In this document: positions 960-27,218 of the stretch, in pieces
How the letters are laid out: each line of letters begins with the position of its first letter
Numbering within the stretch: the stretch's first letter is position 1
Notes under the pieces: generated by a model
The model's database searches: none
Seen by the model: only the letters and a program-made list of their open reading frames with translations
What the model was told of the DNA's origin: nothing
From: an uncultured Olsenella sp.
GTDB lineage: Bacteria; Actinomycetota; Coriobacteriia; Coriobacteriales; Atopobiaceae
Length of the DNA: 64,000 nt
Assembly: GCA_900314495.1 (NCBI GenBank)
Contig: OMVJ01000012.1
Coordinates: 1 to 64,000 of the forward strand
Direction of reading: 5' to 3'
Position numbers and translations under genes: made by a program

Positions 960-3143
960 ATGGGCGTCCGCACGCGCAGAGCACGTAAGCACTCCCGTAC
1001 CCATATCGTTGGTTTTGGCATCGCAGGCATCCTGGGCTTCATCTGCATGCTGGTCATCGCCCTTGGCATCTCGCTGGGGGCCTTGGTCAACTCATGGCTG
1101 CAGGACCTGCCGGACTACAACTCGGCCGACGCCTACCTGGTGGCCGAGCCCACGGACGTCTACGATGCCAGTGGCAACGTCATAGCCGAGTACTACCTTC
1201 AGAACCGCATCTCCGTCACCAAGGACGAGGTCTCCCCTTACGTCATGAAGGGCACGGTCGACACGGAGGACGTTCGCTTCTACCAGCACAACGGCGTGGA
1301 CCCGCAGGGCATTCTGCGCGCCGTCGTCGTCCAGTTCACCGGCGGTTCCGAGGGCGCCTCCACCATCACGCAGCAGCTTGTGAGGAACACCGTCCTCTCG
1401 GACGAGCAGTTCGAGCGCACGCTCAAGCGCAAGGTGCGCGAGGCCTACATCGCCATCCAGATGGAGAAGAAGTACTCCAAGGACCAGATCCTCATGATGT
1501 ACCTCAACACCATCTACTACGGCCACTCCGCCTACGGCATCCAAGCCGCATCCATCACCTACTTCAACAAGGACGCCAAGGACCTCACGCTGGCAGAGGC
1601 GGCGCTCCTCGTCGGCCTGCCACAGTCCCCCTCCTACTATGACCCGACGGAGAACCCCGAGGCAGCCATCGCCCGCCGCAACACGGTTCTGGACCGCATG
1701 CTCAGCGCGGGTGACATCAGCCAGGAGGAGCATGACGCCGCCCAGGCGGAGCCCCTGACCCTCAACCAGGGCGAGGTGCTGGACTCCCAGGGTACCTACC
1801 CCTACTTCACGGACTACGTGAAGCAGCTTCTGCTTGCGGACTTCGACGAGGACACCATCTTCCAGGGCGGCCTCAAGGTCTACACCACGCTTGACCCAAC
1901 CGCCCAGCAAACCGCCCAGGACATCGTCACCACGCACCTGGACCAGTTTGGTAACGACCGCCTTGAGTGCGCCCTCGTGGCCATTGACCCCACCACCGGC
2001 TACATCAAGGCAATGATCGGCGGCCGCGACTACAACACGGACCAGTACAACCTTGCCACCCAGGCCAAGCGACAGCCGGGCTCCTCCTTCAAGACCTACA
2101 CGCTCGCCGCGGCCATTCGGGAGGGCATGAACCCGGACATCCTGATCAACGCCAACTCGCCGCTGCAGATCTCCTCGGGCTGGCGCGTCCAGAACTACGG
2201 CAACGAGTCCTATGGAACCATCACCCTGCGCAAGGCAATCGCCATCTCCTCCAACACCGCCTTCGCCCAGGTTGCCGAGGCCATCGGTGCAGACAAGATC
2301 GTCCAGGCCGCGCACGACATGGGTGTTGACGAGGAGCTCTCGCCCTACGCCTCCATCACCCTAGGTACCGAGGGCGTGCCCGTGGTCCAGATGGCGGAGG
2401 CCTACTCCACCCTCGCGGCCGACGGCGTCCACCGTGACTCCGTTGCCATCACCAAGATCGAGGACAGGAACGGCAACACCGTTTACGAGCACAAGGACGA
2501 GCCCACCCAAGCGCTGGATGCCGGCGTGGCGGAGGCCGTGACGGACGTGCTACAGGGCGTCTGCAAGCCGGGTGGCACGGCATACGTGATTGCCAACACG
2601 CTCACGGCCGACCAGCCCGTTGCCGGCAAGACGGGCACGTCCGAGAACTACCGTGACCTCTGGTTCTGCGGCTACACCCCCCAGGTGGCCATTGCCGTTT
2701 GGACCGGCTACCGCCAGGAGGACACCGTCACCGACGCCTACGGCAACGAGGCACACCCCTACTCCGTGGCCGTGCCCGTCTTCGTTGACTACGTGAACGC
2801 CACGCTTGACGGCCTGCCTCGGCAGGAGTTCCCAACGAACGGCACCACGCCCACCTACAAGAGCAACTCCGAGTGGACCTTCACCAACACGGAGAGCTAC
2901 GTCAACCAGTACAGCGACTACTACACGTACGACGACTCTTATTATTCGGGCGACTACTCCGGCGACTATTCGGGTGACTACTCTGGCGATTACTCGTCCG
3001 ACGGCTATTCGGATGGCCAGAGCTCCTATTCCGACGGCACCGGGACCGGCTACTACGACGGCTACAGTTCCGACGACCAGTCTGGCTACGGCGAGGGCTA
3101 CGGTGGGGATACCGGAGGCGGGGACGCAGGCGGCGGGTACTAG
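960..3143 (+). CDS. Class A penicillin-binding protein (PBP1A family)
   Basis: A bifunctional murein synthase of 727 residues. A short basic N-terminus leads into one membrane helix (about residues 18-45). The GT51 glycosyltransferase domain follows (about 85-260), with the catalytic Glu in EDVRFYQHNG (near 102), GASTITQQLVRN and RKVREAYIA. The transpeptidase domain (about 340-620) has the S-x-x-K motif in PGSSFKTY (near 375), SSN (near 430) and KTGT (near 556). It polymerises lipid II and cross-links peptides outside the membrane. The C-terminus is a low-complexity Tyr/Ser/Gly/Asp tail of about 85 residues that includes four SGDY-type units in tandem. A strong AAGGAGG sits just before the ATG. 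The next gene is convergent. Confidence 0.95.
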   Translation: MGVRTRRARKHSRTHIVGFGIAGILGFICMLVIALGISLGALVNSWLQDLPDYNSADAYLVAEPTDVYDASGNVIAEYYLQNRISVTKDEVSPYVMKGTVDTEDVRFYQHNGVDPQGILRAVVVQFTGGSEGASTITQQLVRNTVLSDEQFERTLKRKVREAYIAIQMEKKYSKDQILMMYLNTIYYGHSAYGIQAASITYFNKDAKDLTLAEAALLVGLPQSPSYYDPTENPEAAIARRNTVLDRMLSAGDISQEEHDAAQAEPLTLNQGEVLDSQGTYPYFTDYVKQLLLADFDEDTIFQGGLKVYTTLDPTAQQTAQDIVTTHLDQFGNDRLECALVAIDPTTGYIKAMIGGRDYNTDQYNLATQAKRQPGSSFKTYTLAAAIREGMNPDILINANSPLQISSGWRVQNYGNESYGTITLRKAIAISSNTAFAQVAEAIGADKIVQAAHDMGVDEELSPYASITLGTEGVPVVQMAEAYSTLAADGVHRDSVAITKIEDRNGNTVYEHKDEPTQALDAGVAEAVTDVLQGVCKPGGTAYVIANTLTADQPVAGKTGTSENYRDLWFCGYTPQVAIAVWTGYRQEDTVTDAYGNEAHPYSVAVPVFVDYVNATLDGLPRQEFPTNGTTPTYKSNSEWTFTNTESYVNQYSDYYTYDDSYYSGDYSGDYSGDYSGDYSSDGYSDGQSSYSDGTGTGYYDGYSSDDQSGYGEGYGGDTGGGDAGGGY

Positions 3144-23327: not shown

Positions 23328-23717
23328 ATGTTTCACTTTGGCAAGTGGGGTTTTGGCAGGAGCAAGGGCAACGTCCAGGAGCCCGAGCCATACAAGCGCG
23401 TCTCGACGCCTGACGACGGCGGCAAGAGGCGCAGGCTGCACCTGCGCTTCGTGGGACAGGTGCAGGCCGTGGGCTTCCGCTGGAACGCACGCAAGGTGGC
23501 AACCGAGGTCGGCTGCACCGGCTGGGTGGAAAACAAGTCCGACGGCAGCGTGGAGATGGAGCTGCAGGGCACGGACCCGCAGATTTGTGACTACTTTGGC
23601 CTCTTCGCCGACGAGTACCGCTCCCACCCCATCCAATACCAGATCAGCGAGCGTGAGGACATCCCCCTCGTCCCCGAGGAGCAGGAGTTCGTTGCGAGGT
23701 ACGAGTGGGAATACTGA
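23328..23717 (+). CDS. acyP: Acylphosphatase
   Basis: The protein has 129 residues, of which about the last 92 form the acylphosphatase fold. HLRFVGQVQAVGFRW holds the phosphate loop and catalytic Arg, and GCTGWVENKSDGSVE holds the catalytic Asn. It hydrolyses acyl phosphates such as carbamoyl phosphate or 1,3-bisphosphoglycerate. The charged N-terminal 36 residues are an extension not found in the basic family. CGAGGAGGT lies upstream of ATG 23328. Its end overlaps the glycosylase start by 13 bases, so the two are one operon. Confidence 0.93.
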   Translation: MFHFGKWGFGRSKGNVQEPEPYKRVSTPDDGGKRRRLHLRFVGQVQAVGFRWNARKVATEVGCTGWVENKSDGSVEMELQGTDPQICDYFGLFADEYRSHPIQYQISEREDIPLVPEEQEFVARYEWEY

Positions 23718-24502
23718 GGGAAGCTCACGACTTCGACCTGGACGCGATCTTTCGCTCCGGCCAGGTCTTCACGTGGAGGCCGCTCGAGCCGGCTTCGTCC
23801 GGCTGGGGCACGGGCTACCTGGTGTCGTCGGGACAGAGGCGGTGCCGCGTGGGACAGTCTGGCGGCACGCTTGCCCTGCTGGACGCAGACGGGGGTGCCC
23901 TGCCACAGGAAGACGCCCCCTATTGGGAGCACTACTTCGCGCTAGATGCCGATTACGGCGCAATCCTGGGAGGGCTCTCCCTGCCCCATGAGGTGTGGGC
24001 GGCCTCCGCGGGAATCCGCGTGCTGGCACAGGACTGGTGGGACACGCTGGTCAGCTTCGCCATATCCCAGAACTCGAACATCCCCCGCATCCAGCACGCG
24101 ATGGATGCCCTCATGGCAGCCGGGGGCGGTTGCGTCCCGCAGCCGGCCCAGCTTGCCCGGCAGCTTTCGGACGACGGCTTCGCGAATGCGCTCAGGTTGG
24201 GGTACCGCCTCCCCTACCTGCAAGGCATTGCCCAGCGGTGCACGGCGTGGCGGCCCAGCTCTTTGGGTAGCCGCCCGGTGGCCTTGGAAGAGCAGCTGCT
24301 TGAGCTGCAGAGCCTGCCGGGCGTCGGCCCCAAGGTGGCCAACTGCGTCTGCCTGTTCGGTTTGGGATACCTGGACGCGGTGCCTCGCGACACATGGATC
24401 AAGAAGGTTGAGTCGCGCGAGAACGTAGCCTGGGACCCGACCTATGGCGGAATACAACAGCAGTATTACTTCGCCTGGGCACGCGAGAGGAGCCACGCAT
24501 GA
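23705..24502 (+). CDS. OGG1-type 8-oxoguanine DNA glycosylase/AP lyase
   Basis: A 265-residue HhH-GPD glycosylase. The N-terminal part is OGG-like, starting from FRSGQVFTWRP. The helix-hairpin-helix is SLPGVGPKVANCVCLFGLG with the Schiff-base Lys, and the catalytic Asp is in AVPRDTWIKK. It excises oxidised guanine and may nick the AP site. The GTG start at 23705 lies inside the acylphosphatase gene. The stop overlaps the next start as ATGA, so translation of the following small gene is coupled. OGG1 and AlkA-like members are hard to separate; the N-terminal domain favours OGG1. Confidence 0.88.
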   Translation: MGILREAHDFDLDAIFRSGQVFTWRPLEPASSGWGTGYLVSSGQRRCRVGQSGGTLALLDADGGALPQEDAPYWEHYFALDADYGAILGGLSLPHEVWAASAGIRVLAQDWWDTLVSFAISQNSNIPRIQHAMDALMAAGGGCVPQPAQLARQLSDDGFANALRLGYRLPYLQGIAQRCTAWRPSSLGSRPVALEEQLLELQSLPGVGPKVANCVCLFGLGYLDAVPRDTWIKKVESRENVAWDPTYGGIQQQYYFAWARERSHA

Positions 24503-24732
24503 AGATTGCATCCATCGGTGACGTCGTAGACATGAACAAGCGGCTTGCTGCCTCGGACCTGCACTGCAAGGTTCACTTGCGCGACGCTTGAGGCAAGCAG
24601 ACGCTGTGGCTGGAGCCACTGGAAGATGCTTGCGACCTTGCCGCGGTGCGTGACGTCACACGCGCGCACTTCGCGCGGCTACGAACCGAGCTGGAGTTTG
24701 CCGACGACGGGGTGACCTTCTGGCTGAAATGA
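24499..24732 (+). CDS. Small candidate selenoprotein with in-frame TGA (Sec31)
   Basis: An open frame of 77 codons from ATG 24499 (ATGA overlap with the glycosylase stop) to TGA 24730-24732, interrupted by TGA at 24589-24591, codon 31. Sequence on both sides reads as one protein: KVHLRDA, then U, then GKQTLWLEPLED, ending VTFWLK, with the same GC-rich third positions. R-D-A-U-G suggests replacement of a Cys in an R-D-A-C motif; I recall an uncharacterised small-protein family named for that motif, but cannot confirm it. A SECIS-like hairpin follows at once. The function is unknown; a redox or metal role beside a repair glycosylase is a guess. The alternative is a nonsense-mutated pseudogene. 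Confidence 0.7.
24592..24633 (+). promoter_or_regulatory. Bacterial SECIS-like hairpin
   Basis: Directly after the TGA: an outer stem GCAAGCA (24593-24599) with TGCTTGC (24627-24633), 7 perfect pairs; an internal loop; and an upper stem GTGGC (24606-24610) with GCCAC (24615-24619), capped by TGGA. The apical loop starts 19 bases after the TGA and has a G in its first two bases, as published bacterial SECIS rules ask (loop 16-37 bases away, G at position 1 or 2). It would recruit SelB for Sec insertion. Confidence 0.65.
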
Positions 24733-25193: not shown

Positions 25194-27218
25194 CTAGAAG
25201 GCGCCACCGCCGCCTCCGCCGCCGAAGCCGCCTCCTCCACCGCCAGAGAATCCGCCGCCCCCGCCACCGCCAGAGCTAGACGACGATTCGGCAAGCGCCG
25301 CGCTCGACACCTGGTGCGCAGATGCAGTCGCAGTGTTCAGACTCTTCATGGGGCTGCCGTGCATGCCCGGGCCACCCATGTAGTACCAACCGTAGACGGG
25401 ACCCATGTAGGAGTCGGCAAGGATCTCCGGCGCCTTGACCTTCAGCTGGTCGATGACCTCGTCGGCAACATCCAAGACAACGGCCATGACCAGCAGCTTG
25501 TTCCACAGCACCACGTCACGCGGCCATGCCTCCTCAAGTCGGGTGAAGTCCTTGAGCCAGGCCTTCAGCGCCTTGAGCTTGGCAGTCAGCTCGATGGCCT
25601 CACGCGAAAGCGGCTTCATCCGAGACGCTAGCACAAAAGACACGACGGAGGCGACAACCAATATGAAGAGAACCGCGAAACCAATGAGAGCAGGAAGCAC
25701 CCCAAAAGGGATTCCGAAGAACACGGCGATTGCCGCAATGACATCCGCCATCCCCAAGCCCAAAACCTGGTTCCTGCCAGACTTCTGCGCATCGATGAAG
25801 AAGTTCCTGCTTTCGCACTGGCCCTCAACCAGGTGAACCCAGCTATCCCACGCCTTGCTGTAGGCAGAGGGGTGTTCCTTTGCCGCACGCTCGAACTCCG
25901 CAAAATAGACCGTATCCGCGTTGGTGGGAAGGCCCTCCGAGTCGCGGCCGCCCTTGTCCTTGCCCGAGAGCTTGCCCACGCGGTCGAAGACGAAGTAGAG
26001 GGTCTTGTCATCAACTGCGGCACCCTTGGGCCGCTTCTTCCCGTCCGCGCCAATCTTGTTTACTTTGCGCGTCAGGCGATAGTCCTGCTTCTCCTTCTCA
26101 CGGCCAAAGAATCCCTTGTCTGCGTATTTCACAAGATCCAGGTCCATGGCACCCATGTCAGTCAGCCTCATGAGACTTGCCGTGAAACATTGGTCGGTGG
26201 GATGGCCGTCGTTCAGGAGGGCACCAAGCACCGCCGGATGGTCATCGGACGGGACGTCACGGAAGTACTTGTCATCAAACTGAGGCTTGTGCCCCCTCTT
26301 GTAGGCACCCCTCTTCACGAACGCCCATACGGTTGAGAAAAGCGCAAGGAAAGCGCCTACGCCGCCTATGCCGGCGCCGATTGCGCGCGCCCGCTCACGA
26401 CGAGCGTTCGCCTCCTCGGCCCATGCGTTCTCCTCGGACAAGATTGACTTGAGCTCGTTGCCACCCTGGGTGGTCGCAGCGCTCAGCCATTCGGATGGAA
26501 ACACGATGCGCGCCTCGGCAAATTCGTCCGAGCCGACACCGGGCACGTTGTAGACCACGTTGTCTTCGTCGTCAAACCAGAGCTCGGCATCCAGGGGACC
26601 ATGACCCCACGCGCGCACGTTTGCGTCTGAGCTTCCGTCGTGCAGAACGTCTGCCCCGCTGGGAATGGGAAGGTGAACCGTGCACGTCACGTCCCGCGAC
26701 TCGACGTCCCACCCGTCAGAGACGAACTTCCAGTACAACTCGCCCACGTCGGTCCAGCGCACGGCAAGGTTCGTGTCCGTGTAGCGGACGACGTAGCTCG
26801 CAGATTCGTCATCCACGGGGTGGTAGAGCTTCACCTCAAGGTAGCTGCCATAGTCAAAGACCTCATAGACGCCATCCATGCCGTTGTAGGCATCATCTGT
26901 CTGCGTGAAGGGAACGAAGTCCCCGTTCACCTCCATGCCAACGGAGTCGATGGTCGTCGTGATCGTCCTGCCGTCAGACGTCGCACCAGTGGGAATCTTC
27001 CAGTAGACGCCGTTGTAGGAATCATCGAAGTCGAAGGTCCTCGTCTCGCTGACCGAGAGGGAACCATCAGATGCCAAGGTGGCATCAATGTCTACCTGAT
27101 CGATGCTATAGTCCGCGCGTGCGACCACCGGCAATGCGAGAATCAGTCCGAGGGTCACGCAAAAGAGCAAGACTCGGCCGAACGAGACGCAGGCGACGGT
27201 TCCCCTTGAATGACGCAT
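25194..27218 (-). CDS. DUF2207 domain membrane protein
   Basis: The protein has 674 residues. A signal peptide (VLLFCVTLGLILALPVVARA) precedes the extracytoplasmic DUF2207 beta-rich domain (about 35-240; DIDATLASDGSLSVSETRTF is typical). One membrane helix lies near 285 and a pair near 500-540, bracketing a cytosolic domain. The C-terminus is a Gly-rich tail with GGGFSGGGGG runs, as often seen in this family. The function is unknown; homologues (YciQ-like) are predicted membrane proteins. GGAGTGATCC lies before the ATG. It is a single-gene unit with its own terminator. Confidence 0.88.
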   Translation of the reverse strand: MRHSRGTVACVSFGRVLLFCVTLGLILALPVVARADYSIDQVDIDATLASDGSLSVSETRTFDFDDSYNGVYWKIPTGATSDGRTITTTIDSVGMEVNGDFVPFTQTDDAYNGMDGVYEVFDYGSYLEVKLYHPVDDESASYVVRYTDTNLAVRWTDVGELYWKFVSDGWDVESRDVTCTVHLPIPSGADVLHDGSSDANVRAWGHGPLDAELWFDDEDNVVYNVPGVGSDEFAEARIVFPSEWLSAATTQGGNELKSILSEENAWAEEANARRERARAIGAGIGGVGAFLALFSTVWAFVKRGAYKRGHKPQFDDKYFRDVPSDDHPAVLGALLNDGHPTDQCFTASLMRLTDMGAMDLDLVKYADKGFFGREKEKQDYRLTRKVNKIGADGKKRPKGAAVDDKTLYFVFDRVGKLSGKDKGGRDSEGLPTNADTVYFAEFERAAKEHPSAYSKAWDSWVHLVEGQCESRNFFIDAQKSGRNQVLGLGMADVIAAIAVFFGIPFGVLPALIGFAVLFILVVASVVSFVLASRMKPLSREAIELTAKLKALKAWLKDFTRLEEAWPRDVVLWNKLLVMAVVLDVADEVIDQLKVKAPEILADSYMGPVYGWYYMGGPGMHGSPMKSLNTATASAHQVSSAALAESSSSSGGGGGGGFSGGGGGGFGGGGGGGAF

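Follow-up and report, generated by a model that had tools for sequence, protein, structure and literature searches.

We found that codon 31 of a small RDAC-family gene, in the 64,000-nucleotide stretch of DNA analysed here (hereafter called the "window"), is an in-frame TGA that, judged from the sequence, is very likely read as selenocysteine (Sec). The open reading frame, its homology, the Cys/TGA pair with its relatives, the Sec machinery of the genome and the hairpin behind the TGA together lead to this reading. It is likely, with somewhat less assurance, that the gene encodes the first Sec-containing RDAC protein, which would have arisen by a recent Cys-to-Sec conversion in one Olsenella-like species that formed a new lower SECIS stem through codons absent from its relatives (GAT GCT TGC), beside a Sec-decoding congener that keeps Cys.

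The RDAC gene and its in-frame TGA codon

The translation of the 234-base frame reads MKIASIGDVVDMNKRLAASDLHCKVHLRDA*GKQTLWLEPLEDACDLAAVRDVTRAHFARLRTELEFADDGVTFWLK*, in which the first asterisk is the TGA at codon 31; the terminator at codon 78 is also TGA. This bears out the earlier note, which had described a 77-codon frame with a TGA at codon 31 and an ATGA overlap with an OGG-like gene: the glycosylase gene ends in a TGA at 24500-24502, which overlaps the RDAC ATG at 24499-24501. With Cys set at residue 31, the 77-residue product matches NF047998, "RDAC family protein", at 63.9 bits (cut-off 26) over residues 5-76, and the direct read-through of the DNA against the same profile scores 52.4 bits with one TGA within the match. 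Since this single match spans the TGA, the downstream part is protein-coding, and the note's description of protein-like sequence continuing to a normal stop was correct. No Pfam family was matched by the product with Cys at 31. The window gene thus resembles NF047998 in its motif, its length and its above-cut-off, full-length match; in contrast, the fourth position of the R-D-A-C motif is Cys in all other core members that we read and TGA in the window gene. With standard gene calling, such a gene would be shortened to 30 codons or overlooked.

Features of the RDAC locus (window coordinates)
Feature	Position	Strand	Evidence
OGG-like DNA glycosylase gene, upstream; start codon uncertain	23705..24502	+	OGG_N, TIGR00588
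RDAC-family gene, 77 codons plus stop; Sec proposed at codon 31	24499..24732	+	Translation and NF047998 match
In-frame TGA, codon 31; proposed Sec codon	24589..24591	+	Aligned with Cys in 53/53 core-motif homologues
Proposed bacterial SECIS hairpin, with UGGA (24611-24614) as apical loop	24593..24633	+	Folds, controls, constraints of PMC13188914
tRNA-Phe, after the RDAC gene	24863..24938		
Gene for large protein with Gly-rich tail	25194..27218	-	

The TGA codon aligns with an invariant cysteine

Which residue do the relatives carry at position 31? The earlier note had proposed an alignment of homologues, with Cys at this position as support and Trp or Arg as evidence against Sec. Among the 53 loci read that keep the core motif, drawn from Actinomycetota and Bacillota, all have Cys (36 in Coriobacteriia and 17 in Clostridia), and neither Trp nor Arg occurs at position 31 in any aligned homologue. 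In a 19-sequence alignment, six residues do not vary (D29, C31, G32, Q34, F67 and F74); five of them are present in the window protein, the exception being position 31. A Coriobacteriales MAG and an uncultured Olsenella sp. (RUG001) are the closest named relatives, and for this reason we call the organism Olsenella-like.

Profile searches detected RDAC in 33 of the 298 genomes from the class, in 37 of the 140 from the taxonomic family, and in 14 of 392 and 10 of 391 genomes of the Clostridia order and class samples, respectively. Across these samples, the only stop inside an RDAC match is the one in the window's own genome. The 36 further RDAC genes of the 140 family genomes include no second TGA form, and profile searches of about 1,500 genomes, which covered the class, phylum, genus and family as well as the two Clostridia samples, gave none. 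Scanning 84,980 genomes by pattern, apparently with the window's own genome left out, also returned no TGA form. In the genomes searched, RDAC thus has no TGA homologue in another Sec-decoding organism; such homologues serve as a supporting filter for selenoproteins and not as a required feature. Moreover, SelA scores above its cut-off in at least seven genomes with a Cys-form RDAC, including the congener G246, and none of these RDAC genes has the TGA. Because the congeners and all other sampled relatives are without the TGA, the conversion of Cys to Sec would have arisen in the window's lineage; a single conversion in this species is the simplest history and probably the origin.

The genome contains the selenocysteine machinery

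The window's genome (2.80 Mb in 65 contigs, 99% complete) has all four of the components that the earlier note had suggested looking for: tRNA-Sec (71.4 bits; anticodon TCA (UCA) by ARAGORN), SelA (542.8 bits), SelB (336.3 bits) and SelD (381.5 bits). Their genes form one cluster on contig C36 that spans about 6 kb. Together with the Cys homologues, this complete set supports the note's central claim of Sec insertion at codon 31. In addition, the SelD sequence of this genome is MSAHAKRLTEMTAASG*AAKMAPG, where the asterisk marks a TGA at the position normally taken by Sec or Cys; the selD of G246 has an in-frame TGA at the same position, and SelD is probably a selenoprotein itself in both genomes. 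Given this TGA and the machinery, Sec is very probably decoded in the window's genome for one or more standard clients.

The two selD genes (L045, contig C36, 16536-17459; and L076 of G246, 1984-3024) have in common a hairpin of 8-9 bp whose GUC loop lies 33 nt downstream of the TGA. In G178, which belongs to another Sec-decoding genus, RDAC adjoins a LysR-type regulator, and the selA-selB cluster is about 6-8 kb away (L074, G178:C1:2036000-2050000). Other genes lie between RDAC and the cluster, the two do not form one operon, and a link of RDAC to the selenium gene cluster was rejected.

A SECIS-like hairpin follows the TGA codon

Folding confirmed the hairpin in the form claimed from the sequence. 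Its 7-bp outer stem (24593-24599/24627-24633) is followed by a 4x4 internal loop and an upper stem of 5 bp, plus 2 bp past a bulge, which is closed by the 4-nt loop; the predicted free energy is -20.5 kcal/mol. The loop lies 19 nt after the TGA, with G at its second position. The bacterial SECIS (bSECIS) model prescribes a loop of 3-9 nt, an upper stem of 4-16 bp, a spacing of 16-37 nt and a G within the first two loop positions (PMC13188914), and the hairpin falls within all of these constraints. Its 4-nt loop, second-position G, 5-bp upper stem and 19-nt spacing all match the bacterial SECIS of that study, while the selD hairpins of the same genus differ from it in loop and spacing.

We then assessed how often such a hairpin occurs by chance. 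The bSECIS rule is passed by 324 of the 1593 TGAs of the window; 25 of the 324 form 12 or more pairs with a free energy no higher than -20 kcal/mol. When the protein sequence was fixed and the codons were redrawn from the window usage, 18% of the synonymous recodings passed the rule, 0.84% were as stable and 0.36% were both; the fold stability corresponds to z = -2.7, above 99.2% of the recodings. Since 18-20% satisfy the rule by chance, the hairpin alone is not enough, and we regard it as moderate evidence for Sec insertion and not as proof.

The two stems have different backgrounds. Some of the upper stem is imposed by the W-L-E-P codons, and it is partly common to the Cys congener G246. The lower stem pairs the G-K-Q codons with GAT GCT TGC (D-A-C), and it is absent at the same place in the folded Cys relatives, except for a similar 7-bp outer stem in L054. 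The lower stem being mostly missing from these relatives points to a mostly lineage-specific element. A search of Rfam returned no SECIS match for the RDAC hairpin, and none for the selD region either, so the negative result for RDAC is uninformative.

Alternative explanations

Could the TGA be a lesion in an ordinary Cys-form gene? The C-terminal half is 46% identical to that of G246 and 33% identical to that of G656, as compared to 44% between G246 and G656, both of which have Cys, and the GC content by codon position stays gene-like downstream of the TGA. This downstream conservation and the gene-like GC argue against an old pseudogene; on these sequence data, the downstream half would be compatible with a mutation that occurred very recently or with an error in sequencing. 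A fresh nonsense mutation would convert TGC or TGT to TGA in one step, leaving a new pseudogene with a 30-residue fragment and a hairpin formed by chance and by the W-L-E-P codons. The restriction of the TGA to one of the genomes searched, the frequency with which the bSECIS rule is passed by chance and the partly common upper stem of G246 are in keeping with such an event. However, the gene has five other codons one step from TGA, and yet the TGA sits on the invariant Cys, in a genome equipped for Sec, ahead of a downstream half without decay and of a hairpin in the top 0.84% for stability. We consider the fresh mutation improbable.

The occurrence of the TGA in a single draft genome of 65 contigs would fit an error of sequencing or assembly that replaced TGC or TGT, the true gene being of the ordinary Cys form, but the error would have to strike the third base of exactly the invariant Cys codon, which precedes a hairpin whose stability is matched by less than 1% of the synonymous recodings; this explanation is less probable still than a fresh mutation. 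As for the insertion of another amino acid, such as Trp, or a separate 30-residue peptide, UGA read-through does occur in general, and we found no specific support for it here. TGA is the normal stop of both the RDAC gene and the glycosylase gene, and this use as the gene's own terminator makes a general recoding of TGA unlikely; in addition, the homologues argue against Trp or Arg at position 31, and conserved residues lie after the TGA. The probability of either is minimal.

Proposed decoding and relation to known selenoproteins

In the Sec reading of codon 31, we propose that SelB carrying Sec-tRNA(UCA) would bind the mRNA hairpin, which starts one base after the UGA. The UGA would then be decoded as Sec, and translation would continue to the TGA at codon 78. 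Most likely, the resulting Sec31 would be the selenol through which a small redox protein of thiol/selenol type reacts.

For rare selenoproteins whose Cys homologues are widespread, Cys-to-Sec conversion has been described as the principal route (PMC1794560). There are also reports of selenoproteins that have no TGA homologue, such as the DUF523-containing protein and hypothetical protein DF (PMC12013277). As in RDAC, these have a Cys/TGA pair, a bSECIS-like hairpin and a Sec-decoding host; in contrast, they belong to other families, and RDAC itself has neither a UxxC nor a CxxU motif. The 2026 inventory lists 119 prokaryotic selenoprotein families, GenBank-annotated cases included, and RDAC is not among them (PMC13188914). 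The NCBI family record aside, our literature search found neither "RDAC family protein" nor RDAC together with selenoprotein. If the Sec reading is true, one family would be added to the approximately 119 known in prokaryotes, and a reactive thiol/selenol would be indicated in a family of no known function. Moreover, because the Sec-decoding congener keeps Cys, the two genes would form a clean pair for studying the evolution of a Sec site from a Cys codon and a newly formed SECIS hairpin.

Gene neighbourhood

The product of the upstream gene matches Pfam OGG_N at 35.9 bits (cut-off 23) and TIGR00588 with an E-value of 7e-22, below the strict cut-off of the latter. The earlier note had remarked that a redox role of the small protein would fit this neighbour, a glycosylase for oxidative damage; a link to the repair of such damage is not supported by the loci. 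The glycosylase adjoins RDAC in nine of the 31 Coriobacteriia loci examined, all nine from genera g1 and g12; in four Clostridia loci with longer flanks, it was not detected next to RDAC. A general RDAC-OGG pair was thus rejected, and because of this limited adjacency we assign no repair role to RDAC. The gene for the large protein with the Gly-rich tail recurs near RDAC in several Atopobiaceae loci (L015, L016, L051 and L053). This recurrence suggests that the gene position is conserved and that gain or loss of the glycosylase took place there.

Predicted structure and possible function

The predicted structure (pLDDT 92.6, pTM 0.82) has a helix-strand-strand-helix-strand-strand order. Residue 31, which is part of the conserved H-L-R-D-A-(C/U)-G-x-Q segment, is located at the turn that joins the first strand (23-30) to the second (33-40). 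Searches for relatives of solved structure by profile and by fold gave no convincing match (best Z 6.8; no Foldseek hit with E <= 0.001); a thioredoxin fold was considered from the same model and searches. We infer that RDAC is most likely a small redox protein with the thiol/selenol as its reactive group.

A Cys near residue 45 (window codon 45, 24631-24633) recurs in L043, L054, L056 and L062, and could be the resolving Cys for residue 31. Finally, distant RDAC-like small proteins from Clostridia (L068, L069, L070, L071, L072 and L097; about 26-35 bits) are without the RDAC Cys and do not bear on the RDAC core. Three of them (L068, L071 and L072) have a GECC or GACAC motif later in the sequence, close to where Cys45 is found in the window protein, and the distant proteins possibly represent a second active-site type.
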